From Acanthococcus lagerstroemiae (taxonomy: Eukaryota; Arthropoda; Insecta; Hemiptera; Eriococcidae): a stretch of 64,000 nt of DNA. The stretch covers positions 42,712,268 through 42,776,267 of the forward strand of contig CM063108.1 of assembly GCA_031841125.1 (NCBI GenBank), read 5' to 3'. The notes under the pieces are model-generated. The model did not search any database. It was given only the letters and a program-made list of their open reading frames with translations, and had not been told where the DNA came from. Below, piece after piece: positions 2,130 to 63,047 of this stretch. Positions within the stretch are counted from its first letter, which is position 1. Every line of letters begins with the position of its first letter. The translations under genes and the position numbers were made by a program.

Positions 2130-3121
2130 ATGGAAAAAGCCCGAAGCTTTTCGTGGCATTCCTCATTACACAGTTTATTTAATCACTTCAGCAGAATATA
2201 TTCAAGTATTATAGTGGTTTACTTCTTAGCTGGATTCTGCATATTCAGCACCACACCCAACTTCAGTTCAGGAAGTCGAGGTGAATATTGATTTTTTTTT
2301 TTAATTCCCAGTTGCCCCGTATTGAAAGCATATCAGTTGCTGTTAATATTTTCCACTCTTTTTTTCTTTTCCTTTTATATGAAAGAATCAACATGGCCTA
2401 CTGATCTCAAGAGCGAATTTTTCTATCCTACACCGGATCCGATCAACATTAATACATCGACTGCTGAAATTTACAAGTCACCTGTTGTACTCACAGTAAC
2501 CGTTGGGCTGCTTGATATGCACATAATAACAAATACTGGATACGGTGGTAACGTTTTTTGTTTTTTTTTTTAGTTTCCCATCAGTTAAGAGCACTACTCA
2601 ACTACAGTATATCCAAGGGCGTAGTAAAGCGTAAAACATTGGAAGGTGAAAGGTAGATAAATTTCATAGTTAAAGTTTATTAATTTCGCGAGCGGAATGA
2701 TCAAAACATTAATGAGTTTTTCCCCGATTTGAATTGTATAAATAGGCTAAAAGAGGGCTCTTATACCTGCAATCAAATTCCCCCAACTTTTTCCAACCGG
2801 CTAACTAGATTGAGAGAGAGCCTCCTTCTTATACCCTCCTAATTCCGAAGCTCTCGTGATGTATAACTTACGTATGTACCTATATAATACCGTATTTTAT
2901 ACCTATGGGTATTCATAACCACTTTCAAAAAAATCAAAAGGAATTTGTATAATTTCAACTATTATTATAATAATTCAATAAAAAAAATCAATAAATTTAT
3001 AAATATTATTAAAATATAAATTTAATAATTTAAAATAAAAATTAACAATATTTTTTTAATAATAAAAATAAAAAAAATAAAAACTATAATAAAAATAATA
3101 TCATAAGAAATTATTGGTAAA

Positions 3122-4480
3122 TTGACAAGAATGGGGTTTTCTAAATCATTAATACAACTATTCACATCTTATTTGGCCAATAGACAGCAATATGTTACAT
3201 ACAGGGGGTCTACCTCCCGTAAATTTACATGCACATCTGGTGTTCCTCAAGGTTCGAATCTAGGTCTCTTATTATTTCTCATATTCATTAATGATATTAC
3301 GCAACATATAGAATATTCAAAGGTCTTACTATATGCGGATGATTTAAAGCTATTCCGGCAAGTGAGTGGAACTATGGATAGGGAACTGTTACAACAAGAT
3401 CTCAACGCTCTGGTAAACTGGAGTAAAATCAATAAATTATCTTTTAATGTAAAAAAAATGTTCCTCTGTCACGTACACAAGAAAATTGTTGCCTGTCCCT
3501 ACTGAATATACAATGGACAATTATATCCTTGCTAAGAATAGTGACATTAGGGATTTAGGGGTGATTTTCGACTCTAAACTAACCTTCAAAAAACATATCA
3601 GCACAGTAGTCAACAAGTCAAGAAGAATGCTAGGGTTTCTTATTAGGAATGCGGTGAACTTTAGAGATATTCAGACAATACAAACCTTGTATTATGCGCT
3701 TGTAAGACCTCATCTTGAGTACGCGGAAATTGTATGGAATCCATTCACGGCAGAAATGATCAAAACCATTGAGAAGGTGCAGAAACGTTTTTTAAGATAC
3801 TTGTATTATAAGCAATTTTCCTATTACACTTACTCGATTAAATATAAGGAACTACTTCAGGGTTATGAAATGAAAAGTCTTCGGGGTCGTAGGGACATTT
3901 TCTCGTTATTGTTCCTACACGGGATAGTACAGTTTGAAAAACGCAACACACCTTTACTGGAAAAAATTGAAATTCGCGTACCTACTTTCAATAGTCGTAG
4001 CACTGATCTCTTTACAATCCCTTATTCACGCACACAAATTTTGTCTAATTCCCCCATCGCTCGAGTTCTGAAGTTATATAACAATGTTAGTAGAATTCAT
4101 AACCACCTTGATGTACTCGACTCGATAAACAAATCAGCATTCAAACAGCAAGTTTACAAAATATTTGATTGACAGCTATATTAGTCTCTGATTCTAGCCA
4201 CGGACTGACCTGATTCTGGTTTGAGCGCGTATGTGGGGATGGGCACTAGGGTATGGGGGTGGGGGCAGATAGCGATCTTTCTCCCGTTCGTTTCGCATTT
4301 TTAGTTTTTTTGTTTTTTTTTTAATTTCATTTTTTGTTTGGGTTAAATACGAGTGTAGCATGTAACTTTTTTTATTTTTTAAATTTTTTTTAAATTTGTG
4401 TTTTCAAAATTCTATCAAGTTAAAGCCCCCAGTCGTAATTGGCCATTTTGGCTGTGACCGGAGGGCTTAAAATAAATAAA

Positions 4481-4546
<66 letters not shown>
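3122..4546 (+). mobile_element. 5'-truncated jockey/CR1-like LINE with (ATT)n tail
   Basis: Reverse-transcriptase C-terminal half: SGVPQGSNLGLLLFLIFIND, then YADDLKLF (catalytic YADD) in 3122-3475, continuing in another frame at 3456-4172 (DLGVIFDSKLTFKKHI, the thumb, and the LYYALVRPHLEYAEIVWNP block typical of insect non-LTR elements). The frames are separated by one extra A in an A-run near 3451-3458, a decay frameshift. The 3' UTR holds a hairpin (4423-4468), AATAAATAAA and a pure ATT repeat to 4546, the element's tail. The N-terminal endonuclease and the first half of the RT are missing. It sits in CAL1 intron 2, same orientation as the gene. Confidence 0.85.
4481..4546 (+). repeat. (ATT)n microsatellite
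   Basis: About 22 ATT units directly after the LINE 3' UTR; probably the element's tail, which can expand as a microsatellite. Confidence 0.9.
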
Positions 4547-4547
<1 letters not shown>

Positions 4548-4800
4548 ACAATTCTGAATTTGCTTCATCATTCGTTCTTTTTAGTTGAAGTCACCAATAC
4601 CAGCCTGCTTCCCATACTGACAACAGTCACCGGCGGTCCTCTTGGGACAGATATATACACGCTTGAAAAATTGCAATATTTTTGGGCCCGTTCTTTCGAT
4701 GGTCCAGCGAGCGGTGCCATTGATGGGATTAAGTAAATATGTATATATTTCATGTAATGTAGTAAATGTCGGTAGTAGACGGAAGAAATCCCTGCGCCTG

Positions 4801-4841
4801 ATGCGCAAAAACCCGCGGATAACTGGCGGGTTTTTGCGCAT
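4801..4841. repeat. Perfect 16-bp-stem hairpin in CAL1 intron 3
   Basis: ATGCGCAAAAACCCGC, nine-base loop GGATAACTG, then the exact reverse complement. A related but expanded structure lies in the same intron of CAL2. Confidence 0.85.
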
Positions 4842-5381
4842 TGGGAGATTAGCGTATGTTGGTAATGATTATTACGTCTATGTTAATTTATTCATTTGCC
4901 TGTATTCAGCGCTGCTGTTCAATCTAGAGCTATTTTTATCAATAACAAATACGCTACAAAGGAAGAAGCTCTATATAAACGCAATGGTTTCGCGATTGCA
5001 GTTTTCAATATATAATCGGTAGGATGTGTTTCAATTCGTTTGCTAGCTGGTAACCTATATCCGAATTAAGGCAATTAAATTTTATAGGAAGGATTTTTGA
5101 ACGCTACCTCGTTCGCACCGTTCGGCGAAGCACTTAAGAAAATCAGAAAAGCAGGATCCAGCATACCAATTAGTGCTCCTCCAGTGTTTTTGTGGTTTAA
5201 CGAACTGAATACTGTCCAGTACTACTATTCCTATCCGGGTGCATATTTTGATTTAAAGAACAAAGCGAAGCAGTACTATTGTGCCACTATCATAGAATTT
5301 CCGAAATCGTTCCAGCCTGGAATTTCCATCCCACAGGTAAATCTCACCTTAAGCATTATTGTTACCTGTCTTTATCAATAG

Positions 5382-5552
5382 AGTAGCCAGAATTTTTGCA
5401 AGGGGGGGCAAGTAAAATTTGTTAAATGTGCCTTTTTTTAATCGCGTTGTCCTAAATTTACTGTAGCAAAAAAAAGGTAGCGTAATTAGGATGCTCATAC
5501 GGGACATGGCACCCTTGCCCCCTCCCCCGCGCTATGGTACGCTACTGGTAGT
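5382..5552. mobile_element. Probable short MITE in CAL1 intron 5
   Basis: Ends resemble each other in inverted form (GAGTAGCCA.. and ..GGTACGCTACTGGTAG) around G-rich and C-rich runs; no coding sequence. Target duplication not resolved. Confidence 0.35.
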
Positions 5553-5789
5553 TATATTTTGTCACTGCTGACACTCAAGTTATTCATTTGCAGTGGATAG
5601 ACGATAGATATGTATAGACTTGGAATTTCAAAAATACTTTTCGCTTATTGTATTTTTTAGTATAAACTCTTCACACAATTGCTTGATTTTTACAACAAGA
5701 CGCTCATCAACGATCTGAAACCAGCTCCATGTGGACCAAGGCCATTGAAAGAAGTTTTTGGTAATATAGAAATTTTGTTGCCCGCCTAA

Positions 5790-6480: not shown

Positions 6481-6489
6481 TTAACGAAT

Positions 6490-8875: not shown

Positions 8876-8886
8876 GCTTAGAGCTT

Positions 8887-8888
<2 letters not shown>

Positions 8889-8917
<29 letters not shown>

Positions 8918-9991: not shown

Positions 9992-12900
9992 ATGGTATTA
10001 AAAAGTGCTGTATTGTGCCTGTTGATCTTCTCCAGTGTGACCCATGCAGTACCTTATTCGATTAAAAGCTTGGGTGAGTGTCGCTTTTTTACAAATCTAC
10101 GAATCCATTGAATACACTTACAATTAAGTAAGTATAAGCAGTTCTACTCTCGGTAAATCAAAAATGTTGGTATTTCAGTCCCCAATAGTTATCTCACAAG
10201 TTATTAATGGTAAGTTTTTTTTTTTTTTTGATGGATATGACTGAATTCTACTTTTTCAAGGTTTCAGAAGAAACTTTGATCCATTTTTAATGGGTCAAAA
10301 TTGGATTAAATATGCTAAAATGTCCATTCGGCATGACGGTCCCTCTAACAATTTTTATTCCTTTTTTTTTCAATCTAAATTTTTCAGGCTATAGGTAGAT
10401 ATTAGAACAAACGGGCAGAATAATACTACTCTAGATGAGTGAATGAATGAGTTGGTAACGTGGAAATTGCGTCTTCACAGTTGAGAGTCAGCGTTACCAA
10501 TCTTGAAAATTGTCCCTCGGTTTTTTGTCTTTCGTCATGGCTCTTTTTCAACCAATCACAAAAACAGGAGTTTCAATATTTTTTCGTTGCAAACTGTATA
10601 TTCTTATCAGAGCAATACGGTCCGCACATCAAATCCCGGTGTTTTTGCGACGAGACTTGTGCAGTCGGGTATTATTGTTGAAAATTAAAAGCTAAAAGAA
10701 AAACGTGTCTTTCGGCATGGTCATCTTTACGTAACGATAGACGTAAACTTTCCATATAATTTTTAGGGTCGGCTAGACCCTATTGCAATCGCTTTTTATT
10801 ATTCATGTTCATGTTCTTCAAGTTGTTCAGTACTCAGACGTTATCAAGTGGTAATATGGATGGCGATTCTGTCGTAGTTCGTAGTTTCGTAGGATGTTTA
10901 TTATTGATGAATATAGAGAGCGTTAGTGAATGCGGGTAAGTTCCGAAAAATTTATTCGGACTTCCCAAACCGGTGGCGCGCTAGCATCGGGCCTTCCTCC
11001 CTTTCCGCACTTCAGGAAATAGTGCCATAGAATTCTTATCAACGTTAGGATACACTGTACGTAAATAATGCCTAGCATCTCATGTAATCCTAACGTTGAT
11101 AAGGTTCTGTTGAATCTTGGGAAGTCCGAATTACTGTGAAATGTATTGAAAAGGATTCAGATTCGAGCTATCTGAAATGCTTTTGGTATTTGTTGACTAC
11201 ACATACATGAGCGTCACTATCCAGTTCGACATGTGTATGTGTTAAGTGTGCACGTTCAGTTTTGTATAGATACGTACCTATTAGATACTCACTCTCTCGT
11301 ATGTTTTTTGTCGTCGGATTAGTTACTGCCTTACTGCTTACTCCTGTACAAGTTGTTATTTATTATTCTTCAAGTTGTTCAGTACTCAGACGTTATCAAG
11401 TGGTAATATGGATGGCGATTCTGTCGTAGTTTGTAGTTTTGTGGGATGTTTATTATTGATGAATATAGAGTGTGTTAATGTTTAGCAGAATTCAGACGAT
11501 AGGAATTGCAGCATTTGCCGACCCTAGTCGTGCAGCATTGCTGCTTGTTTGTTTTGGAATCTACTAATCGACGACAGAACACTTTTGTTCGCTATTGTCT
11601 TTCTTCACGGACTTTCATGTGTCCTTCGGCATGGCATTCATCATTTTGATTGCCATGCCAAAATACTAAATTCCCTCACTATCGGCCCAATCTTACCAAT
11701 ATGTTCTGCAGAACGGCTCTTAACAACTCCCATCAAAGAAAGTTCAAGTATCCCCCACCTTCCACCATGAAGAAATATGCCTTATGAAATATCAATATTT
11801 CTGAAGAATGACGCGTACATATTTGTAAAACTTCTCATTTTCTCTCACTACACTGTTTGTGGAGGAAAAGAGTAGGCGTCTTTCAGAAAACGACAGTGCT
11901 CATGAATTGGATATTAATTCATCAAATGATCACGAAGGATATATGTAAGTCTGCGCGTGACTTTGCCTTACAGTCAGGTAGCAGAGATGAACGATACGAC
12001 AGTCGTGGTACAATTGCTGTAGCCGGATGAGCATACTTAGTTACGATTCAGGTGTATAATTTGTTTAAAAGTGTTTAAGTTAATTTAATTGCGTTTATAT
12101 TTTCGTTATTCATGTACATTTTTCCAATTACAGTAGCAAACTACATCATCTAAGCGTGTTCATTGAAACCAGCTTATAAATCGTAACTAAGTATGCTCAT
12201 CCGGAACATTCGCTCTTTCACCTACAGCAATTGTACGATAACTGTCGTATCGTTCTCTGCTACCTGAACGTAAGGCAAAGTCATGCGCAGACTTACATAT
12301 ACGAGTATATGTCGAGTATGGCAGTATGTACCCAACCATTTCAGCTATTATAATGTAAATTTTATATAGTTATCCGTCAACTCGGAACTTACTCTTCTCA
12401 TGGTGCAATAATTTAAGGGAATAGTTAAACTGGCGAATCTTTCCCAAAACCATAATAACTCGACAAGGTTTCTCTTTCTACAAATTAATAAATTTTTTGC
12501 ACTCCAAGTAAAACTTGTGGTACTTATCCTGTGTCGTTTCAGATACACTGTACCTACATTCATAGCTAGGTGTACTATTACATAACATGGCAAACAGAAA
12601 ATTCCTCACAAGCATATTCTGTACTTCAACAAAATCCTGTATTTTTTCGCATGAAGTACTATGATTTTCAAATCCTATAAATGATCTGATCTTGTAGAGG
12701 ATTCATGGCCGGCAGATCTTACCAAGCCGTTTCCATACCGTACACTGGAACCAATAGACATTGATACGTCCTCGGCGAAACTTGTCAATGTATCCAAACC
12801 GCTTACACTAATAGTGTCAGCCTCTGAACTACATAATCTGACAAACACCGGATGTAGTGGTACGTTTACAAATTGTTTTTACGAGATCTACATTATGGTA

Positions 12901-15900
12901 TTACAATTCTAATCTTACAAACTTAAAATCATTGAAAATTATTAGCGAAAGTAAGTGAACATGAAGGGTACGCAGGGAAAGAAGTAAGTTAGTCACTCTT
13001 GTGGCGAAGCGAGAAAAATGAAAAACAATTTGTTTACATACCTGGTTCTTTACCTGTATGTGAATTTTGAAACCCGTTTATCTGGACTGTAGCATCCTTT
13101 CAGGCATCCTACCATAGCTCATCAGCTACTATACTCATTACTCTCGTTCCAATGGTATTAATAACTCAATTTTGCCAAAGACGTGACTTACCTTCTTCTT
13201 CCCCTGTACTCTTCACATTATCTTCTATGTATGTATACCTATGTACTTATAATCGCCTACATACAAAATATCATTTTTGCATACCTTCCTATGTTACAAG
13301 AAGTATCAGTATTATTAGATAAAACGATGTTTTGTCATTCTACCAGAGAAACATTTCATCTTTTTTTGTTATGTCATAAATTTTGTCATCTTCAGAGTTT
13401 TGTCATTTTGTTTTTTCATGACTTTGTTATGTCTTGACAAAATTGTCATTTTGTCTTCCTTTTTGTCATGTCACTTTCACCACATACTTCCAATGGAATG
13501 TCGCTTAGCATAATCTGTTTTAAATTATTGTGTTGTTTAGTATAGTTCATTGTTTAATCGTAAACGAAATGTTATAACATAATTTTTTTTGTTATTTTGT
13601 TTTGTCGTAGGATTCATTTTTGCGTTATGTCATTTTGACGAAATGGTCCTGACAAGAAATAATCTAAGATTTTGTCAAATGACAAAATTTTGAAAATTCA
13701 GTTGTCGTTCCGTCATGTCATCTTTTTTTTTTTTTTTTTTTTTTTCAAGTTGAACAACTTTGCTACGTATATACGAATGTGGGGGTGGATAGCGCGTGTT
13801 AGTCTCGGAATCCGGAGGTCCCGGGTTCGAGCCCACATAGCAACTCGCCAGATTTCGACCTGTGACGGGTTTTAGGTCAGAAGGGAAGAGGGCTAAGGCA
13901 GCCCTAACAGCCTCTCCGACGTCTCTGAGGAAATTCTCGAAAGGGCGGATTCCAGGGTGAGGGTTGAGAGCAAATTAGAAAAGAAGGTATACGAATATAT
14001 GGTACCTCAGTATCATTCTTTCTATGGTGATGATTTTGACATTGCTTTTTCAATTGTAGATAAACATTTTTTTTTTATGTCTTATAATTTTCAGTTGAGG
14101 TTACTATCAATACTTCTCTTCCTAAGACTTTGGTGACTGGTGGTCCGCTGGGTAATGATACGTACGTGTTTTATAAGCTAACATATTATTGGGCCGGTGC
14201 CTATACAGATGCTGCCAGCGGAACAACTGATGGAACGAGGTACATACGAGTATTTTCATCAGAAACTTACTCGTTGTATAACACACACTATATCTACCCG
14301 ATGCGCAAAATCCCTCAAGTTACCCGAGTAACTAAAGGGGAATAAGGGGAATCTGAGGGTAACAAATGGGTAACTATTCCGCCGTGGGTAACTAGTGGGT
14401 AACTGAAGGGTAACTAAAGGGGAACAAGGGTAATCTGAGAGTAATTCGAGGGTAACAAATGTGTAACTTTTCCGCGGGTAACTGGGTAACTAGAGGGTAA
14501 CTGATTGCGCATCGGGTTCTTGAGAATTCGAGATAACTGCCCAGCTTATTTATTGATTATTTTTATTTTTACATGCTCGTCACATTCTATACAGCACTCC
14601 ACTTGAAAGTAGAACTGTTTTCCGCAATCTGAAATATCCAACATTTGAAGAGGCTGTGTGCCATCGCGATGGTCTTGCGGTTCTTGTTGCCGACCTAGTA
14701 GTGGTATGTAACCCAATGGTAAAATTACTTAATTTACACTGGATAAAATGCAATAATTTTTAAACTTGGCCAGCCCTGAAAAAGAAAGACCCCTTTCTAG
14801 GAAAAAATCCTGGTAGTGCCCTTGGTATAGTTTATCTTACAACCCTATTCTCTCGGTACATCCTTGCGGTAAGATATCTGTAGTTGTGTACTTCTCTACA
14901 CCAGAAAATTGTGACATACGTATATAGTAACGATTATAACGTGCTACCTACTACACGGAGTTCAATTTGCGGCCCGTTTACAAATTTTGAACGAACGTAT
15001 TACTCATCGCGACAGAAAATACATTACTCAATTTGCGACCCACGAAAGAACGTAAATTACTCAATTTGTGGCCCTTAGGTACGAGCCTTCAGCACTTTTG
15101 CTGCGCTACATTTTCGTTAGGCCTAATTGTTGGATTTTACGGAACCAGGCCTATTCCAGATAAAATCGGCATCCGAGAAGTGACGCAGACGGCCACACTT
15201 CTAAGTGGTTGGCGAGCTCAAAATCCACAAAAATAGTCCGCCGCGTGAACGACGAAGGCAAAAAATTTTCAATTTCTGGGGGGGGGCGTAACAATTCGAC
15301 GGTGTCTCATTCCAAAGAAGTACATGAGGGGTACATACGTACGTTTCCTCCTTCCATGGAGAATAAAAAACTGCGAAAACAATTTCGGACACGCATAGAA
15401 AGTTCCATCCATGAGCACAGCACTGCACTTCAAAACAAACTGTAATTTAGTCTCGGTGAAGAACATGAGGATATTACTGACGTCATCGTTTACCATGAGG
15501 AATTCTTCTCCAATTTCGGTAGGAAATATCACGCCCTTTAAGGACTCGAGCAAGTTAGTCAAAGTGTTGGGCAGTGGGCCCCAAATTGAGTAATTTTTAT
15601 TTTTCCGTGGGCCGCAAATTGAGTAATCTTCATTTTTCCGGGGGCCGTAAATTGAGTAATCTACGTTATTTCGTGGGCCGCAAACAGGTACCTTTCTACT
15701 GCTTTCGGCCGCAAACTGGCATCTATGCTACTGCAGCGGCTGATCTAAAAACTAAAATGAACAATTGCTACGATAGCGCTCTTGCGCGCGTGACCATGTA
15801 GCAAAAGGTACAGTGCTATACTATCTGATTAGTCTCAAAAAAAAAAAAAAATGGTTGCAAATTATTGGCTGGGATATCTAATACATAGATATTATCGAAT

Positions 15901-18900
15901 TTTTCAGGAAGGATACGCGCCAAACCCAGCATTCATACCGTTCAGCAACAAACTAGCTTCGATCCGTAAGCCCGGTAGTCGTGTTCTGATTACTAGTATT
16001 CCAGTGTTCTCTTGGTTCAATGAGATTCCTCTTGTTCAGTATTACTACGCGTTCCCGGGAGCTTATATCGATAAGAAGAACTCGGCTCAATACGACTGTG
16101 CAACCATTATTGTGTCTCCCAAAGGTTACGCGTTTGCCATATCCATCCCTCAGGTAAAAGTGGTACAAAATGACCCTTGTCCTAATCTTCTATATTTGCG
16201 AACACATACAATACAATACAATAGCCTTTATTAGCGGTTATATGTAGGTAGTAGGTACATTTACAGCTTATGTAACTATTTGTCTTAAGATGTAGTTTAA
16301 GGCTACTTTTACTCCGCTAGGCCCAGAATTGGGCAAAGGTCTCCTGCAGCCTTCCCCATTCTTTTCGGTCTTGAGAGATTCTATGGAAAAGTTTGTGTCC
16401 CAGAAAATTATCAAGATCATCAGTCCATCTAGCCTTTTGCCTTCCCTTTTTTCTAGTCCTGTGTGCTAGAAACCAGAAGGTTATTTTGTGGGTCCATCTA
16501 TTATCTGTCCTCCTACTCACGTGTCCCGCCCATTTCCATTTGTTTCTCCTGATCCAGTGTACACAGTTTAGGTTGTGTTTCAGTCTAGATTTTATTATTT
16601 TAGTTCGAATTTTGTCTGATTTCTTGATGTTTAGCATGGATCTTTCGATGGAATTTTGTGTTGTTTCTATTTTTTTCATTATTTTTTTTGTCATAGTCCA
16701 AGTTTGAGATCCGTAGGTTAGTGTGGGTAGAACGCATGAGTTGAAGATTTGACTTTTGTGATAGTTTTGGAATGGTCCTTTGAAGATGTCTTTTAACGTC
16801 CAGTATTTTTTCCAAGTTAGTGTAATACGCCTGTTAACCTCTTTTTCAAAATTGTCGTTGTAGGATATCAACTGACCGAGATAGATTACTTCTGATATTT
16901 TTTCTATTGTTTGATTCTCAATTTTTATTTCTTTTTTTGTATCCCTTGTTAAAATTTTTGTTTTATTCATGTTCATTTGTAATCCCGCTTTTTTCCCCAA
17001 TTCGTTCAGTTCGTTAAGCATTTGTTCTAATTCCTTGATGTCGTCTGTGATTAGTACTACATCGTCTGCAAAACGTAGATTATTCAAGCGCTCTCCCCCA
17101 ACCAGGATTCCCTTGCTGTCCCAGTTTGTATGTCTAAAGATTTGTTCCAAAGCGCAATTGAATAGTATTGGAGATAGAGGGTCTCCTTGCTTTACTCCTC
17201 TTTCTATGTTAAAGTATTTTCCAACTTTGTCTGTAATTATTCTTGCCCTTAGATTTTTGTACATCTCTTTTATTAGTTTTACTAGCAATGTAGGAACCCC
17301 TTGGTCAGCAAGTGCCTCTAACAAAAAACTATGCTTCAGAGAATCAAAGGCCTTCGTATAGTCTATAAAGGCTAGATGGACGTCGATCTGATATTCATTG
17401 CAGTTTTGTATTAGTAGATTAATGGTATGTAGATGGTCGATAGTTGAAAAGTTTTTTTTGAAACCTGCCTGTTCGCTTTTTTGATGTTGATTTATTATGT
17501 TTACTATTCTATTTTCTATAGCTTTAGAGAATGTTTTTGACAACGCCGTACTTAAAGAGATTGGTCTGTAATTGTTGATTACGTGTTTGTCTCCTTTTTT
17601 ATACAGTAAAATAATGTCTGCGAGTTTGAAATCGTCCGGGATTATTTGATTTTTTAGAATGTCGTTAAAGTAGTCTGTTACCTTTTTGGCCAGCAGTTTT
17701 CCTCCGAATTTGAGTTGTTCGTTTGTAATTTGGTCGTGACCTGTTGCTTTGTTGTTTTTTAAGTTTTTTAGTATTTCTTCTATTTCGCTAGCCATAAATT
17801 CCGGTACAGTTTCATTTTGTGTCCCAACGAAACTTTCGTTGTCGGTTCTGTCTGAATATAGTTCTTCGTAGAAGTTTGTAGCTATTTGATTTATCGTGTT
17901 TCTGTTGTACTGATTCATACCATTTTTGTCTTTGATATACGTTGTCCATGTTTTGCCTAACGTTAATCCCTTTTTTATTGTTTTTGTACTTTTTGTTGTT
18001 TCCAGTATGTCATTTATCAATTTTGTTTTTCGTTGATAATTATTTTCCCTTAGTTTTTTCTTTACCAGTTTACATATTATATTTAGTTCTATTTTATCGC
18101 GCCTTGTTTTGTTTTTTATACGTTTAATTTTCTCTCTTTCTTTAATTAAGTTTTTAATCTGTGATGGTAGTTCGTTGGGATTCAAGTTTGTTGGTTTTTC
18201 GGCTACTATTTTAGTTGCATTCTTGATAATTTCTGTTATATTTTTCGTTGGATCGTTCCTTATCTGTTTGTTTATTTCTCTTTCGTATGCGTCTGCATTG
18301 TTTTTAGTTATTTTATAGTTGTAGTTCTTATTGGTGTGTTTAAGATTTTTTGTTTTTCGCATTTTCATCTCACAGAGTACTAACCTGTGATCCGAGTGGT
18401 ACCATATCGAGTACCTATTACATTCATGGACGGTATCTTAAAATTTTTCCGTGTAAAAAAAATATGATCATAAGATTCATTACTAGCCCCCCTCCTCCCT
18501 CACTCGTCCCTCAAGAAAAATTAAATGTTTACAACCAACTATAATCGAAAGAAAAATGATCAGTATAACCGAACTCTACTGCAATATAATTGCAAAAAGC
18601 GTTAGATTAGGGCATAAATTATTTTATTTGGCGTGAGTTCAGTGGAGCAACACTATGTTTGCCGCCACTGACATGTGTAGTAGGTATATGTTCACATAGT
18701 AGGTATGTATGTTCACGCTAACTAGCTGTTAATAATACCTAGTCTTTCTCATGGGTGCCGACGTAAGCGCCTATTAGTCTGTATTATTATGTAAGCTTGA
18801 CTGAAAGGTTCATGTATTCTATAGGATTCGTATGTTTGATAGCACATATTTCTCACAGGAGACCTCACTACCTATAGAGGGTTCCATGCAATAAGTGCTT

Positions 18901-19790: not shown

Positions 19791-19796
19791 TTATAG

Positions 19797-27759: not shown

Positions 27760-27767
27760 GTATTTCC

Positions 27768-46791: not shown

Positions 46792-48170
46792 CTAGCGTCT
46801 AGTTGGAAGAATATTAACTGTTACTCCCGAAGCTTGCACTATTGGAGTGCATCCTTGTTCAAAATTCGGTATCACTCTGCTCAAGTCTGATCCTTTGAAA
46901 TTCCGTAAACTTTGGAACGCTTTGAACTACGTACCATACAAACAGTGAAAATTAGTGCCGATTGATGGGCAGAAACTCATATGAAATATCAGTCTTGGAG
47001 GAAGAAAGAAAAACAGTATAGAACCGAATCTTTACCTGATCAATTGATATCACTGGCGCGACATATTTTGGTGGAGTGATGAAAGTAGCGCAAAAATATA
47101 CCGCATCATTGTTTTCAATATCGACGTAAGATGCGGGGTAGGCGTAGTAAAATGGCATTTTAGATGTGACTTCCTCAAGGAAAGAAAATAAAGGCAATGT
47201 TCTTGTCTCAACTACAACCGAACCTGGTTTGGTTAGGTTTCTCAGAATACATTCTAGACTCCGGAATGATGGATTGGGGATGTATCCTTCCTATAAAATA
47301 TTGGAATCGAAACATATCATCGATCTTAATCATGAATTTTTAAAGTTATTTTGAATGCTAGTTTCCTGTTGAATACTTCTAACTTTATGGTGAATAACTT
47401 GAACTTACCACTGATATTGGGATTCCAAAGATGACCATACCGTCGCGGTGAGAAAAGGCGTTCGCGTATGACCCGTACTTTTTGTTATAGTAGTAAAAAT
47501 TCATGTATATCGGGGCTCTGAAATGAATCATTATAATGGATTATTCTCCAAAAAGTTGGCATTTTATAACACATTATGGCTTTATTTTGCAATAATTTCT
47601 TCAATCTTGAATTCCCTTCGTATCATACATATTTTTTGATCCTAGAATATAAGTCAGTTGAAATGATCTCATTTCCCCTTACCTTAGTGAAAAAACTGCC
47701 GAACACTTCTTTTCGCGTTACTCTGGTCTGTCGCTTATCATAGTACGTACCATATTTATTTGATTTACTGTTGACCTCAGGCACGTTTTTTGTGACTAAT
47801 TTTATAGGATGTAGGGAGATTAAGTCTAGTCTTTTACGAAAAAGAAATATCAGTATCTATGGAGAGAGAGAAGCATTGCAAAGGAAAGTTCGTACGTCAC
47901 AACTTGTCTACCTCGTGTCAATGCTCATATGTTAACAATTAAACACTGTAAGGAGACAGCATTTTCAAACGTGATTTTGGCTAGGTGGCAGTGCTGTGAT
48001 GTTATTGAAGGTTCATAACTGACCTTGCGTTGTTCCTGGGAACTTCTCAGAAGTCGTAAACACTGAGTGCTCAGTAGCGTATTTCGGTAGTGTGTGGCTT
48101 TCTAACTTCTAATTCCTCTAGAGATGATTTTCCGTTCTAATGATGAAGTTATTTAATCTTGTAAGGAAAT

Positions 48171-48205
<35 letters not shown>

Positions 48206-51200
48206 GTATTTGGTTATTCGATGAGATCTCCATAGTATGGCAACATGACACGCAGAATTGCGACATTTTTACCTGCTTAACTTCATTTTCATGACTTATT
48301 GCTGCAAGGAATTATATGCTTTTATTTGTTTGGTGAAATATGGGCCAAATTGAGATTTCGATGTGAGAGTAAGTAAACGTGAGATACGTAGGAAAAAATC
48401 AACCAAAATTTAAAAAAAAAAGGGTAGTCGACATTTGAAGTCCAAAGATTTCTACTTTTTGGAGAATGACCCTGATATGTTCATGATTTTACTTTTCAAG
48501 CTCACACATGCTTATGAAAACTTGTTTTTTTTTACTTTGCTTTACGTCTGTGAGGAGATGAGAATCAAAAGTGACATTATCCGCCAGAAAATTTTTTCAG
48601 AAACTAAGAAAAACTGATAGGAGTGTACTGCGCGCAGCCTGGTGCCGTTTCTCCTACTAAATGATAGACAGACAACTCAAAAAACGTACGTGACGAATAT
48701 TTCACATGTTCCGTAAAGTACGCAGAAACTGCAGGGGTATAAATTTTGGATAATGAGTTTTGACTCTATGTAGGCTGGAAAAAGAAAAGAAGGAAAATTG
48801 TTCCTGTCGTTCACAGTTTTGCTGAGTTTCGTGAAAATATTCGTACTATCAATTTATATTTTTGCAGCACCCTGTGACATAACCGATGATTATATAAGAA
48901 GAACGGATTTTATTATATGTATGAGGGATATAGGTACAAACAAGACATGTTCCAAAAACTCTTTTTTTTTCAGAAAACATGAAAAACCGTTTCCCAATAC
49001 CTCTGTCTCTTATTTGTGGTAAAAAGTATTTTAAAACATCATTCAGAGGTTTAAAATAAAATTGATGACTCTCCCTCCTGGCGGGTTTGGGACCTCAGTT
49101 ATGTGTTGGTCAATTTTGACTCCAAAGCTATTTTCAAGGCATATAATTCGCGTAGAAGCGTCGAATATCACTGTCTAACGCATACTGAAATTGAAATTGC
49201 ATTGAAATGACCCTTCATCTCTTCATTTTTACTAAAATTGATGAAAAATTCCAAAGAAATACGTTCTCAAAGTACGTTTGAAAAATCGTCAGAACAGCGA
49301 CAAAAACATTCTTTGTCATTCCAGCAACGTGAATTGAGAATGTTTTACACTATACAATCTCAATGTTGTCAACCAGCCTGCCCAAAATGTGATAATTCGA
49401 AGCCTAATCCTCAAAATTAACATGATCCATTGGAACATGTGTGAGAACACCAGTTGTACAAATAACTGATGAGTTTCTATACCTTTAAGAATAAGTCACA
49501 CCTTTCAATTTGATCTATTAGAGGAAGCACCCAGGACCTCCACCTTCACTACGACTAGGGTGGGAAAGATCCTTCACCACAACTGCCTTCCCATAACAGA
49601 ACCCCCTCCACCATCCGCCGCCGACTCCACCTCTGGGAGAAAAAAAGTCACTGCGGGTTGCCTACATTGCCCCTTAATTGCTCATTTCTCCAGGGGCAGC
49701 CTACCCTTGGGAGGGGGTTCATGGCGGAGGAAGAAGCAGGGAAAATCTGCTGCCGCCTCCGGGAGAAAAAAAACCCACTGCGGGTTGCCTACCCTGCCCC
49801 TTAATTGCTCATTTCTCCAGGGGTAGCCTTTTCCGGCAAAAATCTGGAGGTTTCTCTATATACGTCGTGGCCGTCCTCTGCAGGAGCTCCCACCTGCACC
49901 GAGGAGACCCTTCCCGGGGTAGGGTACCACTGGCGAAACGTGAGATTGGGGTACAGGGCAGGTCACCAGGAATTTATCCCCACGCCTTCATTTCTTTTCT
50001 CGTACCACGCCTCCACCAAGACCTCTTCACTAATCACTATGCTCTTCCCAATTGCGGCCTTAATCCCTCGCTACGGTCTTCCCCTTCCACTGCTCCTTCT
50101 CTGTGGCTTCCTCGTCCCAACTCGCTCGAAGATCCCCTGGTCTTCCACTCAGAAGCTCCCACCACCATGACCACCCTTCACCTTCAGACGCCCGCCCGCC
50201 ACCAACCCCTCCCGCACCACGGCTCTCATTTCTCTCCCCGGTCCCTCTTTCACCCAGGACTTCCTCCTCCACCAGAACTTCTTACTCACCATTACCCCTC
50301 ACCACCCAGGGCCTTTATCCCCCTCCTGAGGCCGCACTCCCTATGGATCTCTTCCCTATTCTGGAGCTCCATCCACCATGAACCACCTCCTCCTAGGGGT
50401 AGGCTACCCTTGGAGAACTGAGCAATTAGTGAGGCAAGATAGGCAATCCGCAGGCGGCGGATCCTCCCGAGGGTAAGCTACCCCTGGAGAAATGAGCAAT
50501 TAAGGGGCAGAGTAGGCAACCCGCAGTGAATTTTTTTCTTCCCAGAGGTGGTGGAGGCGGTGATGGCAGATTTTACTTTTTTCACATTATTACGTTAGCA
50601 TGTCATATCCGCCGACTACCATGGCCGAATATTTTTATTTACTAACAGGTTTTCTCTCAATTATTCTCACTATCAGTGTATGATGTTATCAGGGCCGGAT
50701 TTAACATGCTCGCGCCTGTAGACTCCCCTCCAAATGGTAGGCTACCCTGGAGAAATGAGCAGTTAAGGGGCAGGGTAGGCAACCCGCAGTGGGTTTTTCT
50801 CTTGGAGGCGGTGGCGGCGGCGGATTTTACTAAGCTCCCTCCCCCACCATGAGCCCTTACCCAAGTGTACGCTACCCCTGGAGAAATAAGCAATTATAAG
50901 GGGCAAGGTAGGCAACCCGCAGTGGGTTTTATCTCCCGTAGGTACCGTGCAGCCACGCAGCCGCCGCCTATGATTTTGGGAAAATTCTCAGTGAACAGAT
51001 CTAATGAGATGATGATGACGTTATAAAGACCTGAGATCTCACGTCAGAGTCCAAGGTAGCTGGTCTGCCTTATTCATGAACACTATATCTGCCTTTGTAC
51101 ATATCTTAAGTTAGATCTTGCGACTTGAGATCTTGGAGATTATGGGTAATTGTATCATTATATGTCTTTTTATGTCTTACTATGTCGGTTATGTTTTAAA

Positions 51201-53889
51201 ACTTGGGCAACTTTTATGTTAGAATGATCCGCTATCTCCCAACATTTTCGATGCAGTACTGGAGGTAATTTTTAGAAAAGTAGACTGGAGGGGTAAAGGA
51301 CTAAAAATGGGGAACAGATTATGTCCTTGAAAGTAGCTGATCTGACCTGCAATTTTTCTGATTTTTAGGTAGGCAACCCGCAGTGGTTTTTCTCCTCCCG
51401 GAGGCGGTGGTGGCGGCGGATTTTATTATTTAAACCTAACGCATAACCTCATTTAGTGGATCAGACCTCTTCGACTAAAATACAGGGACGTACCGATAGG
51501 GGAGGGGGAGCTTCCTTCCCTGTAGGGATTTTTCACTCAGCAGTTGGGAAAATTTACCATTTTAGTCAGGTAGAGTTGGGAAAAATCCAACAAGTCAAAA
51601 GTTTTTTTTTCTGCTTTGATACTTGGGAATTTTGAATTGAATCATTTGGCACTTTCACCCCCCCCACCTTCCCCTAGGAAATACTGCTCGGTATTTCTCT
51701 GGTGGAATCTTAATTGATTGGATCCGAAAATTATCTTCAAAATCGAAATCAGCATCCTCGAAAACCGAATCGGTATTTCCAAAATTTATACATCGACCAC
51801 CATTTCGAAATTTTTCTCTATCACTTCTCAACTCATTTTTTGAATCCACCCCCGTGAGGTCCGTATTTCATGTAATTTCGATCTAATATTGCTTTCTTTA
51901 GATGTTCGAAAGGGCGCATTTTGCAGAACATTCTACGTTTAATGGATACAATTTTTTATAACCTACTAAAATATAAATCTATGCGTTCTTAATACCTTTC
52001 AGGGTGATGAAAAAAATTTCTTTATGAAAATTCAAAATCTAAGCTTTTGTACATGAAAAAAAAAAGGGTCGAGGCGCCCAGCGTAACCATAAAAAATTCG
52101 TAGTTGGGTCAAGCGAGGGCCGCCAATGCTCTTAGGGTGGGTTAGACCCAGGGGCTAAAGAAACCAGGGCCTCCTTCTCAAAGAAATCCCACTTTTCAAG
52201 ATGTTGAATTTGTGATATTGAACAGATGAAATGATGAAACTGAAAAATGTATAATGAAAAATTACTCTATTGTAAAACAGTTTGCCAATTATGATTAGTT
52301 GCAAATAACGCAATAAATAAGTCGAAATAAACATTTTTTGATGTATGTTTTTCTACATGTAAAATTGATAAATTTGGGAGTCTTTCATGGGTCATAGTGC
52401 TGCGTCAATAATTTTCCATACGCCTCATACGTGAAAAACTGCACTTGCAAGGTGCATTTGAAACCGCAGCTGTTATTTTGAGCTTCTTTAAAAATGAGTT
52501 TATATTCATTCAACATATTAACTAATGACATTAAATTTGAAATTTTCCATTTTTTCCCTCTTCTTTATACGATTTGATGACGTTTTTCAGAATGCAGAAG
52601 CAGAATTCTAATTTCAAAATAATATCAAAATCTAAATGATAAAGTCTAGCTAAAACACTTCTATTTATCAGAATTAAGAAAGTTAACATTTTGAATGTAA
52701 GTAACTGATAGCAGAAATTTCAGTATTATTTGAAGAGTGAAGAAATATTTCTTGAATTATCATCGAAATCACAAAATGAAGTTCAAAATTATTTTCTTAT
52801 CAAAATCATTTTAGTATAAAATGACCTCATCTATTTCTCCATGATCGATTTATCACCCCCCCCCCCTGGGATTAGGGAGGTTTTAGTATCTGAACGGCAC
52901 TGGAGGTGCCACTTATTAATATTATCCAACTGAGCTAAGATTTTCAGGGGTTTACCTTTCCACATTCTGGAAAAATGATACACCAAAATTTTTCAAGTAG
53001 GTGTAAATAGCTGGCTCAAATAGCAATATTATGCACTTTACATCATCTGTGATTCTTACCCATATCCATCAATCTGGGAGCAACAAAGGCTGTTGAAAGC
53101 ATCATTCCAAAAGAATCTTGCCATCTCAAATATGTATGCATCCGTGCTCAGGACACCACCCGTAAGTGAAGCTTGTAAACTAGGCTGAGTGAAACGTATT
53201 CGAACTAATTTTTGAGAAATCGGTATGAATCTTATTAATTAAATGTGAATCAAAATAGTTATATTTATATGGGTGGTGCGGTTGGACGTATCGCGATACA
53301 CGCATGCCAAAGTGACCCATATGACACCGCACCCCCGGCACCGGAAACTACCCTTTCGAGCATCGCATCAGTAGCCAGGGATAGGTATATGAAGTTATAA
53401 TTTAAAGAAAAGAGGGTGATAATATCTCTTAGGTATAATATTTTTTGTCGTAATGGAAACACCTACCCTCACATTAATAATATTATCAAGATAATTACTT
53501 GTATATCCAGTATTATTCAAAGTATAAGTCTGAAATGCATCAACTGTGAAGACCAGCGGAGTTGCATTAACTGGCCGTACATTCTCTGTTTCAATATTGA
53601 GTGGCGTGTTAGTATCAAACGGAAATGGTGTAGTGAGATCCGATGGCCACGTACATGCTGTTGCACATTAGAAGTAGATATGTAATTTGAAATTTTCAAA
53701 TTGACTTTCCATAAGAAGTTGAAGTATTAGTACATCATTATAATATGAATCATTTGGGCGGCGAAGTGGATTTCGTGGCGTCGCGAGTGTGACATGTGGG
53801 CCGATCATATGTAGCAGAGAATCGGTAAGAATTTTTCTGAAAGTGTACTTACCAGCAACAAAACTACAAAGCGTTTCAAAGAAATTCAT
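46792..53889 (-). CDS. CAL5: intact carbonic-anhydrase-like protein, zinc ligands absent
   Basis: - strand exons 53889-53853, 53657-53499, 53204-53060, 47517-47409, 47290-47036 and 46926-46792: 840 bases, 279 residues. Exon sizes and phases match the family; exon 3 is joined through the acceptor aaaaattag and has exactly 145 bases. Blocks: CTWPSDL, PLNIET, NNTGY, SLTGGVLSTDAY, RFFWND, NKKYGSYANAFSHRDGMVIFG, PFYYAYPASYVD, YFCATFI, FKAFQSLRN, GCTPIVQASG. Zinc-ligand positions are R95, F97 and N120; the glutamate position is Y118. The first exon encodes only about 12 residues (MNFFETLCSFVA), a short and weak signal peptide, so export should be tested; an alternative 5' exon is possible beyond the poly-A/T tract at 53899-53922. 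Intron 3 is 5.5 kb and contains the GC-rich repeat island. Exons 4-6 and the 3' flank are duplicated at CAL7. Confidence 0.86.
48174..48200 (+). repeat. Poly-T tract in CAL5 intron 3
   Basis: Run of about 27 T bases. Confidence 0.9.
49500..51440. repeat. GC-rich inverted-repeat island in CAL5 intron 3
   Basis: A block word CACTGCGGGTTGCCTAC.CTGCCCCTTAATTGCTCATTTCTCCAGGGG.AGCC (about 50 bases) occurs forward at about 49649 and 49776 and inverted at about 50465, 50735, 50865 and partly 51365. Between the arms lies a C-rich tract with an open frame (49678-50421, 247 codons, proline/serine/leucine-rich, many PPP and HHxxP runs) and no recognised domain. The base composition differs sharply from the AT-rich surroundings. 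No transposase and no clear ends; perhaps a foldback element or a captured fragment. Confidence 0.65.
51441..53059. other. Remainder of CAL5 intron 3, no gene
   Basis: AT-rich with short C-runs (51660, 52855). CAGGGACGTACC at about 51483 resembles the end of the hAT MITE at 59784 but no partner end is evident. Confidence 0.35.
53266..53392. repeat. Dispersed repeat, copy 2
   Basis: Partner of 46088-46215; lies in CAL5 intron 2. Shares GACACCGCACCCCCGGC and the following CCCTTTCGAG.ATC.C.TCAGT. Confidence 0.6.
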
Positions 53890-55940
53890 TGTTTACAAAA
53901 AAAAAAAAAAAAAAAAAAAAAACAGAAAACCGGTGAACGTCATCCTATTAATCACACATTATCGTGGTCTCTTCGTACCAAAAAATCTACCTGAAGTCAG
54001 CCATGACTCACTTGATTGTCTGGATGCTACTGTCCTGCTTACTGGGAATTCTGGCGACCTATGAAATTTCTAGATTTCGCCGCCTATAATATGAATTATA
54101 ACTACCTAAACGAAAAAACTTAGATACCTCGAGCAATAGCAGTTTTCGAGGTACAAATAGCAGTAGAACTTTCTAACCATCCTAACGTCAGCAGCAAAAG
54201 TGGTAACAAATGATACATATTTAATATTTGGTATACACGAAAACTTCGAGTACATGCAATGTACACTAAAACACTTTGTACACGTATAAAAAATTGTGTG
54301 TAGACTTCTTTGCTTATGTACATGGAGTAGACCATTTAATCTATATGTATCTTTGAAATTTTTCGTATCCTCGAGCTGATGTGGCACTTGTTTAAGCATC
54401 AAATTATTAGGTATGCCCCGTAAATTAGATATACGAGTATATTCAAATTATCTCACATTCCCTTGACAAGTGTGTCTACAGGATATGTACGTATTTGGTT
54501 TAACTTATTCTGTGCAGTATTTTGAAAAGCTGATACATAGATAATGTTTCTCATTATGACAGAAAAATTAATGTACATTAGTCATTTTGTGCTTCTCGAA
54601 TACCTGTTAGAATATTACATATTACGATATACCTAGTGTTGAGCTTACGGAGTCTTCGTCATCACATGAAATATACTACTGAGGTTCTGATGTAATAAAG
54701 TGGTGAGAATTTGGTTATATGTATAATAGGTGTAAGTTTAACATAAATCTGTGCATACTTAAAGCTTTATTTTTTTTAAATAATAATTCTTAGCTTTGGG
54801 ATAAAATTTACTTGATGTTTCTTCAACTTCTAATTCTGCATCGTGATGGTTGCTTAAACTGTTCAGTGATTCTTGAACCATGGCGTCCTTAAATCGTTTT
54901 TCAGCATTGAAATGTAGAGAACGTTCGTGACGCTAAACATACCCATGCACCCTAATAATTATATTTAAGGTGGTAGCGTGATCAAATTTTTTATCCTTTA
55001 ACTCGGGGAGCAAAGATTCAGGTCTCGTTTTATGAAGGTTTTCCTATTTGTTTCGATTACTCTTTTAATTTGTAGCCAGTGTTATAGAGAAATTATTTCA
55101 GTAAGAATTTACCCTCAAATAACTAATCTTTCAAAATTTAAAATATCGATTCATCACGGATCATCACGAATCATTTCTTGCAGGTACATTTCTTGTGGGA
55201 GGTTGCAGCACAAACTGGATAGGTTCTGAAATATGTCGCTAGGTGTCAGCCGCTTTGATTCCGAGTCCCAATACATAACTGTTGGCTGTATATTCTAAAT
55301 GTGTATGTCAAACTGGTAGAGGAGGTGATAGCGTTCGACGAGAGGAACTAGCCACGTTGTACATATGTACATGTATGGCATTTATTCTACATAAATTGAA
55401 GGGGCTGCAATTCGTCGATGTCTGAAAAATAGCAGGGAAACTTTCGTTGCGAGTTTGATAACTAATTATTTTAGACATTTTTTGGAAGATAATTAATAGG
55501 TATAATGGTAATAAAGATCTATCAAACTGAATTTGCTAGCTTTGATATTGAAGGGGCTACACCAATTCTAGATAAAATTGAAAATCTGTTTGCCCGTTTC
55601 ACTTGCAATCACTCACCACTAAAAAATAAGGTCTCTCAACTTTCAAACCCTCCTTCCTCTCTCTTTCTAGATCTGCTGCCAATTATAAGTATGTATTGCA
55701 TCAAAATTTGCCTCCTCCATCTCTTGCTGTCAGTACATTACTTCAAATAAGGATACGGTATGTGGTTATTACTCAGCATTAATGTCTATTAAAATTAAGC
55801 GTATTTGGGGATCTTAAAGTTGATATTTAGTTATTTGTACTATCTATCTAGTTTTACTGTGCATAGAAGTAATTTTCATGCTTTGCAATCAAAGTTTGAA
55901 AATTTTTTGGTATTTTTGGATTATTTCTGTTTCCAGACTG
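53890..55940. other. Spacer upstream of CAL5, no gene
   Basis: A poly-A run of about 24 bases (53899-53922) lies just beyond the CAL5 ATG. No family exon and no domain-bearing frame. Confidence 0.35.
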
Positions 55941-55944
55941 CGTA

Positions 55945-56400
55945 ACTGCAGTTGGGAAATTATTAATCGCCATTCCCGCTACTTATACAACAGGAATACT
56001 TCCTTGACAGAAATTTGGCGCAATGTTGGTCAAGATTGTTCCTTGAAAGTTCCTCATATTTTGGAACGACGAAAACCCTAGTTATCACATAGTAACGAAA
56101 ACTATTACCCTTAATATTGCATTCATCATAAAAATTATTTTAATAGAAAGTATTTACCTGAGGAACAGATATTGGCCATAAATGTTTGGGTAAAGAAAGA
56201 AGAGTGGAGCAGTAATATTGTGTATCCCTCATCTCAGCATTGATGTATGATCCTGGATAAGTTTAGTAAAATTGCATTTTCAATAGGGCATCCTGCATAG
56301 TACCAAACAATCTCCATTCTGAAGAATAAACGAACATGACCTGGTCTCTTGTCTTCGTATGCCTACTCAAGGAAAAAGTACACATTTGAAGGACTTGTGC
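55945..56400 (-). pseudogene. CAL6: relic exons 5 and 6 of a carbonic-anhydrase-like copy
   Basis: Exon 5 relic, from about 56400 to 56158, ends in QFY*TYPGSY..YYCSTLLSLPKH..ISVPQ followed by a good gtaaat donor; the third tyrosine of the YYY motif is a TAA (56265-56263) and the 5' half of the exon cannot be kept in one frame. Exon 6 relic, 56075 to about 55945, reads FSSFQNMRNFQGTILTN..PNFCQGSIPVV and then TAA (55985-55983) where CAL5 has glutamine (CAA to TAA). The expected acceptor AG before exon 6 reads GG. At least three independent lesions make this a clear pseudogene. It is closest to CAL5/CAL7 (LRN/MRN..NF.QG). I found no exons 1-4. Confidence 0.75.
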
Positions 56401-59952: not shown

Positions 59953-61660
59953 GGAGACCGACATTGGGAACAATTACTTACCGGAGCGGAACTGATCTCA
60001 AAAATTGTAGCCGAAGAAGTATCGAACAAATTTGTTTTAGAACTGGAACCAGATCGGAGCAGTTTCGGTTTCGAGGCGGGCACCGGATCCCGAACTACAG
60101 TCAGGGACGAAAAGAAGGGGCGAGGGGCTTGTCCCTAAGCCTCAGTCTGAGTTGGGGCATTTTAGTAGATGGATCAAAAGTTCGGTAAATCCAACCAGTC
60201 ATAAGGTTGTTTTTTTTTAAGCATTTACAAATAAATTTTGATACTTGGGAATTTCGAGTTGAGTTAGTTGGGAATTAACAATTTTTGTCCCTCCAGAAAA
60301 AACTTTTCGCTAAATCCCTGATTACAATGTATACTTTACATTGTATAGTAATGATGAGGGGGGAAAAAAACTGAAAATATTTTACGAGTAAGTAATCTGA
60401 GCTTGAGGATACGTTTGCGTTACTCACCAGGTTGGTTGCATTGATTTGTGTCAATGTACTTCGTATACCTAATCCTAGAACAGTATGTACCAGCGCCAGT
60501 TTTGGAACTTGGAGGTGAGCTCGGCTTTTGTCGACTTCAAAATCTCGCCGACTCTAGTATTCGCACCGTACCTGCCAGCAGTTGTACTAATTCCTTCATG
60601 GCCTGTTTGAGTTCGAGAATTACCGAAAGAAGCACTCGCACCATATCCGCCTGTAGCTGCACCAACCCCCCGTCAGTCTGCTGGAGCATGACTGTCATCG
60701 AATGTGTCTCAACTCACATATATGGCAAACCAAAAAATATCAACAAAGTTAATGGCCCCATTCTGTTAGATCCAGTAGTATTAAATTATAAATATGAATG
60801 TGACCTCGGTAATTTGCTATCATTAAGATCAGCACGTTAGTGAAGGTCTCTCAAAAATGTAACTGCCTTACAGATGCATTCGTTTAATCTTATCTAATTT
60901 GCAAATAGTATGCATCTTGATATCTCTACACAATGTCTAAAATTTTATCAGCAAAAATACATTCTAAATGTGATGTTGAATAAGAAAACATTCCGAAGAT
61001 AAGAGAAATCCAAACATCAGGTTACTTTTTTAAAAAGTCCGAAAAATAGGATGGACGCTTATGTATGAGTTCTTACATGTTTTTGTACTCTTGGGAATAT
61101 GTTTATTCAAATAAGGGGGAAAATGTATTCAAGGGTTAAGCTCTCCACATAGGAGAACTGATTATTAGGACTCCGAATCGCAAAAAATCCAAAAATGATT
61201 TTTAGACGCTTGGGTATATTTTCTCGTCTAAGGTCACAAATGATCTGACCGTATGTAAATATGATATAAATATCGTATGCACTTGTAGCGTAATCAAAAT
61301 TTGAGGACTGCTATCCTGACTTTTGTTCGAATTTTCAAAACGACTTCCGTTAAAGTATCCTGACTCATCCGGCCTCGAAGTCCCTGAATTCGTTTTAGCT
61401 CCGTGATATTGTCAGTTTCCTGCATAGGACATTGGTTTAAGGCGAAATGTGAAAAAAGGGATTGCCTTCAGAGAAATTAAAAATTGAGGAAACATAGTTT
61501 CGATATAGTATTGTTCGTTGCATTGTAGTCAACATGTTAACTGTGTCAAAATCAATCAGATTACCTACGTTTGTTTGAATGCATGTATCGTGACCAAAAT
61601 ATTGGGAAAGGTACCTACTACCTACCTAATATTCTCAGCGTTGAGAAACTTCTTGGAATT
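59953..61660. other. Spacer with a coiled-coil-like - strand reading
   Basis: The - strand at about 60695-60535 reads MTVMLQQTDGGLVQLQADMV..ILELKQAMKELVQLLAG, a leucine-heptad pattern such as transposon-encoded ORF1/gag proteins have, but short and isolated. Nothing else is recognised. Confidence 0.3.
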
Positions 61661-62324
61661 CGGAAATGACATTTTATTTTAGTATATTTAATGCATTAAT
61701 AAAATACATTCTACTCGCGGTTGTGTTTTTTGTCTTCATAGTTTTTGGTAGGGGAAAGAAGTCCCACTGTAGGCGATGTTCTCGATGTCAGTACCTATAC
61801 CTTTATAGACCCCACAATTAGTGATTGAAATTGTACTGATGAGCAATTGCGCTCTCGTCTACCTTCAGCAATTCCCATTTTAATCCACTGTGATAAAATT
61901 ACAGTCCGGACGTAAACATAAAAGAGAACTAGGGGCTTAGCATGTCAAATCCTCTGAAAGCTCCTTCCCCCTCTCCCTCAAAAAATTAAGACGTTACACA
62001 AGCGAACGAATTTTCAGAATTATTTTGATACTTGTTCGCCCCCTATCCTGATCCCTGTACTCCAAGTCGGCTATTTGCGCTTATGCATTTGTGTATATGA
62101 ACAATGATTCTGCTCCGCTACCTTTCTGTTATCAGTTTATTGCTTCGTGCAAAATAAACATATTGGCTGTGTTACATTGCTAATAAAATATGAAAATTTT
62201 GAAATCTTAGAACAAATGGTTATAATTATGTGGCCGCGTGTGGACATTTTTCTGTGTGATGTGGTACTTGTAAATGCTTAGAAACTCGTTAAGCACAATC
62301 TTCAGATCAATTCTTTCCAGAATG
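61661..62324. repeat. CAL7 3' flank, duplicate of the CAL5 3' flank
   Basis: Matches 46216-46791 with an extra CT-rich insertion around 61930-62060. With the exons this makes a duplicated block of about 1.4-1.5 kb. Confidence 0.7.
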
Positions 62325-63047
62325 CTAGCGTCTATTTGGAAGAATATTAACTATTACTCCCGAAGCTTGCACTACTGGCGTGCATCCTTGTTCGAAATTC
62401 GATACCACATTGCTCAAGCTTGTTCCTCTAAGATTCCGTAAACTTTGGAACGCTGATCGGAACTACGAACCATATAACAGTGAAAATTAGTACCGATTGA
62501 TGGGCAGAAACTCATATGAAATATCAGCCTTGAAAAAAGAAAGAGAAACAGTAGAACCGAATCTGTACCTGATCAATTGATATCACAGGCGCGATATATT
62601 TTGGTGGAGTGATGAAAGTAGCGCAAAAATATAGCGCATCATTGTCTTCAATATCGACGTAAGATCCGGGGTAGGCGTAGTAGAATGGCATTTTTTTTTG
62701 TGATCTCCCGAAGGAACTCCAATAACGGCAATGTTCCTGGCTGAACTATAACCGAACCTGGTTTAGTCAAGTTTTTCATTATACCCTTTAGAGTCCGAAA
62801 TGATGGATTGGGGATGTATCCTTCCTAGAAAGTATTGGAATCAAAATACACCATCGATCTTAATCATAAAGTTTTAAAATTATGTTGAATGTTGGTTTCC
62901 TGTCGAGTAGTCGTAGGTGAATACGTGCGTAAACTTACCACAAATATTGGAACTGCAAAAATCATAAGACCGTCACGTTTTGAAAAGGCGTTCGCGTATG
63001 TCCTGTACTTCTTGTTATAGTAGTAAAAATTCATGTATATCGGGGCT
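62325..63047 (-). pseudogene. CAL7: exons 4-6 of a carbonic-anhydrase-like gene, frameshifted
   Basis: - strand exons 63047-62939 (109 bases; APIYMNFYYYNKKY, KRDGLMIF), 62824-62569 and 62462-62325 (FRSAFQSLRN, GCTPVVQASG, stop TAG). Very similar to CAL5 along exons, introns 4-5 and the 3' flank. Exon 5 is 256 bases rather than 255 because a run of nine T (62691-62699, nine A in the coding sense) has one base too many; downstream of it the original frame (FYYAYPGSYVDIE..) is otherwise open to the splice donor. A single homopolymer indel is as easily a sequencing error as a real lesion. Exons 1-3 are not found in the last 950 bases and, judging from CAL5's 5.5-kb intron 3, would lie beyond the window. 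Confidence 0.8.

Follow-up and report, generated by a model that had tools for sequence, protein, structure and literature searches.

A multi-copy family of putatively secreted carbonic anhydrase relatives without a zinc site in the coccoid Acanthococcus lagerstroemiae

A 64,000-nucleotide stretch of the genome of the coccoid Acanthococcus lagerstroemiae (assembly GCA_031841125.1, contig CM063108.1, positions 42,712,268 to 42,776,267; hereafter the window) contained seven copies, CAL1 to CAL7, of a gene related to the alpha-carbonic anhydrases (CAs). The encoded proteins lack the zinc-binding histidines and further catalytic residues of these enzymes, and judging from the sequences, the family is very probably non-enzymatic. 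In an alignment with canonical CAs, the residues at the three zinc-ligand positions of human CA II (His94, His96 and His119) were Q/F/R in CAL1, T/Y/R in CAL2, Y/Y/V in CAL3 and R/F/N in CAL5, and histidine occupied none of these 12 positions. The third position of the partial copy CAL7 was N. These residues match an earlier reading of the same DNA (hereafter the original prediction), and its statement that the triad is gone in every readable copy held within the window.

The catalytic loss was wider than that reading had listed. The residues were counted over 14 family rows, comprising four window genes, nine domains from the mealybug Planococcus citri and one protein (P0023) from a Sarracenia contig. 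They were compared with 10 canonical rows, which remained of the 17 non-family proteins returned by homolog searches after P0005, P0007, P0010, P0011, P0012, P0015 and P0016 (three of them shorter than 190 amino acids) had been excluded before the count. All 10 canonical rows kept the triad, Glu106 (E106), Glu117 and the Thr199-Thr200-Pro201 (TTP) motif. In contrast, E106 and the TTP motif were present in none of the 14 family rows, although an insertion makes the loop columns 198–201 difficult to align. Triad histidines were nearly absent across the family (His94 in 1/14 rows, His96 in 0/14 and His119 in 1/13), and position 96 was aromatic in 11 rows and aliphatic in three. Trp97 was retained in 13 of the 14 rows and Glu117 in 8 of 13. 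The window proteins thus lack the features of an active alpha-CA (H94/H96/H119, E106 and TTP) and have those of an acatalytic CA-related protein. They would be expected to bind no metal and to have no CO2-hydration activity, and given the loss of the zinc site, the non-enzymatic use originally proposed appears to be the likeliest reading, with ligand binding, matrix and saliva, as suggested there, as candidate roles.

The alpha-CA ancestry claimed in the original prediction was supported by the profile search suggested with it. The spliced products of CAL2, CAL3 and CAL5 scored 78.7 bits (6.8e-22), 82.3 bits (5.4e-23) and 68.2 bits (1.1e-18; scored without the signal exon), respectively, against PF00194, for which the curated cut-off is 27 bits. 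Among structures in the PDB, CAL2 matched human CA VII with an E value of 7.5e-16. Splicing was needed for recognition by PF00194, because single exon-5 pieces stayed below the cut-off (one sub-threshold match and two without any match, n = 3). On this sequence evidence, CAL2, CAL3 and CAL5 are carbonic anhydrases by descent. The CA beta-sheet fold was also predicted confidently for one P. citri relative, P0020. With the fold considered in this relative and the splicing in the gene models, neither outcome that the original prediction named as refuting it came up: a fold unlike the CA core, or histidines regained through another splice model with transcript support.

Beyond ordinary CAs, the homolog searches returned eight P. 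citri proteins (P0001, P0018 to P0022, P0024 and P0025) and P0023. All of these searches required shared five-residue words, and two of them scored the best 7,996 and 7,992 candidates by shared words; further members may therefore have been missed. P0001 has two domains, and the other seven annotated P. citri relatives are 290–300 amino acids long. Identity of the window copies to P0001 and P0018, the two P. citri proteins measured, was 26%–38%. In a tree of 24 rows, support of 100/100 separated the CAL family from canonical CAs. Within the family, one clade (95/95) comprised the four window genes, and a second (92/90) contained P0023 and the P. citri domains. These groupings should be read with the long branches in mind, as well as the first domain of P0001, which covers less than half of the columns, the X at the stop of CAL1 and the deviating composition of CAL3. 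The simplest history suggested by these sequences is that the metal site was lost before the split of A. lagerstroemiae and P. citri, and that separate expansions followed.

Two of the relatives require comment on their origin. P0023 is encoded on a 56,632-base contig named Sarracenia purpurea var. burkii, but it groups with P. citri P0021 at 100/100, and it probably represents mealybug contamination of the pitcher-plant assembly. P0001 (LOC135839113; 448 amino acids) combines an incomplete first CA-like copy with a second one and is probably a fused gene model.

The gene models were derived from an all-versus-all comparison of the stop-to-stop frames of the window, which located five families of recurring exon-like frames. 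GT-AG splicing joins these families into one gene plan, consisting of a signal exon of 82–151 bases followed by exons of 159–162, 145–148, 109, 246–255 and 126–135 bases, with intron phases of 1, 1, 2, 0 and 0. The homologous exon sets of the original prediction were borne out by this comparison and by the splicing (Table 1). Three of the seven copies, CAL2, CAL3 and CAL5, are intact, with six GT-AG-spliced exons, the same phases and products of 289–297 amino acids. The multi-copy nature of the family was thus confirmed, whereas the implied intactness of the copies was not, since CAL1, CAL4, CAL6 and CAL7 are broken. Nor is "tandem" an apt description, because strands are mixed and the copies are not arranged head to tail. 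CAL5 is the least certain model because its third intron is 5,542 bases long, and its exons 1–3 and 4–6 could belong to two separate genes rather than one. For CAL7, no 5' exons were found inside the window; the gene may continue beyond the window edge, and it is probably a dead copy.

Table 1. Positions, strands and exon models of the CAL copies in the window.
Copy	Position	Strand	Exons	Product and state
CAL1	2130–5789	+	2130–2280, 2386–2547, 4585–4732, 4910–5018, 5088–5336, 5661–5789	Broken in the shared splice model; exon 4 ends in a single in-frame stop
CAL2	9992–19233	+	9992–10073, 12698–12859, 14095–14239, 14595–14703, 15908–16153, 19108–19233	289 amino acids, no internal stop
CAL3	33682–36991	-	36991–36901, 35415–35257, 34837–34693, 34590–34482, 34167–33919, 33807–33682	292 amino acids, no internal stop
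CAL4	44576–44830	-	Exon-5 fragment alone	Broken; in-frame stop within the YYYAYPG region
CAL5	46792–54218	-	54218–54128 (predicted signal exon), 53657–53499, 53204–53060, 47517–47409, 47290–47036, 46926–46792	297 amino acids, no internal stop
CAL6	55950–56352	-	Remnants of exons 5 and 6	Broken; stops
CAL7	62325–63047	-	Exons 4–6: 63047–62939, 62824–62569, 62462–62325	Exon 5 frameshifted at an A-run

In CAL2, CAL3 and CAL5, a hydrophobic N-terminal exon, predicted to encode a secretion signal, joins in phase. The signal exons of these three genes were chosen among several mechanical candidates by hydropathy and donor phase, and that of CAL1 was taken from the raw sequence at the start position given in the original prediction. 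The secretion-type N-terminus of the intact genes agrees with the secreted nature proposed there, and the proteins are probably exported through this signal.

Other elements were observed within and between the genes. Reverse transcriptase frames, matching RVT_1, lie within the second intron of CAL1 (3107–3505, plus strand, 2.4e-14) and the last intron of CAL2 (16317–18437, minus strand, 5e-36). A perfect (TAT)22 microsatellite (4481–4546) ends 38 bases upstream of the third exon of CAL1. Directly after CAL2, direct and inverted repeats of 125–197 bases with 91%–97% identity occupy 19793–20779. The region 26588–30666 contains a large inverted repeat in three blocks, with arms of 134–559 bases and 97%–99% complementarity, which may be a foldback element of recent origin. 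A repeat-rich stretch of higher G+C content (49473–51448) lies within the long third intron of CAL5; G+C was 0.43 at 48–52 kb and 0.35–0.40 in the remaining 4-kb steps. The window contained no tRNA and no Rfam family at the gathering score.

These findings could be explained by a secreted alpha-CA-fold family of coccoids that has lost metal binding and catalysis and is used as a binding protein in saliva. We put the probability of this explanation as a whole at roughly 0.6. Its core, a secreted and non-enzymatic family with the CA fold, is highly likely, whereas the salivary binding role, which draws on analogy with other hemipterans, is a tentative assignment with the odds somewhat against it. 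Metal binding and catalysis would have been lost before A. lagerstroemiae and P. citri diverged, after which copies would have multiplied independently in each lineage, with frequent copy death in the window. The old active-site pocket, in which position 96 is mostly aromatic, may have become a filled scaffold, and the protein would act by binding another molecule at its surface. In saliva, this partner could be a protein or sugar of the host plant in the apoplast or phloem. A sap feeder already delivering a CA that works by binding could drop the metal.

The closest functional parallel is the salivary protein LssaCA of the planthopper Laodelphax striatellus, reported to bind a rice thaumatin-like glucanase and to raise its activity without a change in pH (PMC12774414). 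Its authors considered this role at least partly independent of enzyme activity (PMC12774414). The likeness lies in a secreted hemipteran CA that works on a plant glucanase by binding. CA has also been reported from cereal aphid saliva (PMC3584018). One S. avenae salivary CA peptide from that report, taken as crossing the triad with a CAL-like aromatic pattern, was rejected as a further member: when scored against 24 sequences, it reached 21, compared with a shuffled median of 22. This peptide may equally represent an N-terminal FGY motif. A second peptide scored 20 against the same sequences, as did its shuffled versions (20).

Several observations weigh against the proposed explanation. First, LssaCA is described as an active enzyme with histidines in its active centre (PMC12774414), and it is thus a precedent for binding by a salivary CA rather than by a dead one. 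Second, the predicted fold is that of P0020, a P. citri relative, rather than of the spliced window proteins CAL2, CAL3 and CAL5. Third, the complete loss of the triad does not extend to the whole family: P0025 of P. citri retains His94, the first domain of P0001 retains His119, and P0023 has Thr at both 199 and 200, without Pro, in a shifted loop. Finally, the other window pairs being too distant for this measure, the ratio of nonsynonymous to synonymous substitution rates (dN/dS) was calculated for the single close pair, CAL5 with CAL7. It was 0.62 over 161 codons, with a bootstrap range of 0.34–1.16 and values below 1 in 94% of replicates, so this pair gives no clear sign of constraint. Exon and intron identities of this pair overlap (exons: 0.844, 0.871 and 0.874; introns: 0.754 for the earlier one and 0.915 between the last two exons).

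A serious competitor, which falls a little short of even odds, is a dead secreted CA-fold family whose role lies outside saliva, be it in the cuticle, haemolymph, gut or reproduction or in the secretion of wax or the ovisac. Coccoids produce abundant wax secretions, and the secretion signal is compatible with any such site. What speaks for saliva is that CA-type proteins are known from the saliva of hemipterans, as reported in the studies cited above.

Much less probable is that the CAL genes are functionless relics in decay. The four broken copies and the CAL5–CAL7 comparison, in which the last intron is more alike than the exons and the preceding one less so, are in line with decay. However, CAL3 and CAL5 share only 36%–38% identity with CAL2, and neutral decay over such a distance should therefore have destroyed the frames. 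Because open frames and splice phases nevertheless persist in CAL2, CAL3 and CAL5, and because P. citri has seven annotated relatives of similar length besides P0001, these three genes are probably functional. That the proteins still bind metal or catalyse hydration through a rebuilt site is very improbable. A lone triad histidine occurs in two P. citri domains, His64 is present in CAL3 and one P. citri domain, and CA II with a His-to-Asn change at position 94 has been reported to retain some activity (PMC5437132), but in the window genes the whole ligand triad is missing together with E106 and the TTP motif. It is hardly credible that histidines are hidden by a wrong splice model: although the signal exons are predictions, exons 3 and 4, which bear the triad positions, are AG/GT-flanked and of near-equal length (145–148 and 109 bases) in all four gene models, and the independently annotated P. 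citri proteins share the loss.

Acatalytic CA relatives are already well known, and the CAL family is a variant of these rather than a new kind. The CA-related proteins VIII, X and XI have been described as inactive and are presumed to work through protein interactions (PMC6609565). CA X and XI are reported to have changes at the first and third ligands (PMC4265532), and CA VIII to lack one of the three (PMC13253706). In contrast to these proteins, whose sequences were absent from our tree, several CAL copies have lost the complete triad as well as E106 and the TTP motif. Toxoplasma TgCA_RP is likewise described as inactive, with two of three ligands replaced, but it is a GPI-anchored parasite protein of 519 amino acids that is closer to the eta class (PMC5437132).

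The CA fold is also found in the poxvirus protein OPG105 (D8), whose ectromelia model gave a match at 1.8e-17; it is a viral envelope protein with a role in cell-surface binding. The nearest relatives are those of P. citri, including LOC135839113, LOC135841398 and LOC135847983, which belong to the same family and have likewise lost the triad together with E106 and the TTP motif; they differ in forming a separate clade and in the single histidine kept by each of two domains. Among the open papers listed, no multi-copy secreted insect CA family lacking the whole apparatus was found, the broader queries covering top results. Open papers on CAs in mealybugs, scale insects and Phenacoccus included none on such a protein, as far as titles and the beginnings of abstracts indicate, and the main text of a Coccomorpha genome comparison (PMC12510726) contains no word beginning with "carbonic".

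Whereas at least one zinc ligand remains in the inactive CA relatives of the reports cited here, the CAL family has dispensed with E106 and the catalytic motif as well as the metal site. The family has nonetheless multiplied in two lineages, and the fold appears to be kept in the modelled relative. A doubtful extension of these results is that the coccoid CA has become a fast-evolving, multi-copy and metal-free salivary binding scaffold, with lineage-specific birth and loss resembling an arms race with the host plant. The P. citri relatives carry record names such as carbonic anhydrase 2-like, carbonic anhydrase 7-like and carbonic anhydrase-like protein 1, and the mealybug "2-like" and "7-like" records that fall within the CAL family are very unlikely to represent enzymes. 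Among these plant pests, the family offers a direct test case for an enzyme fold taken over for binding.

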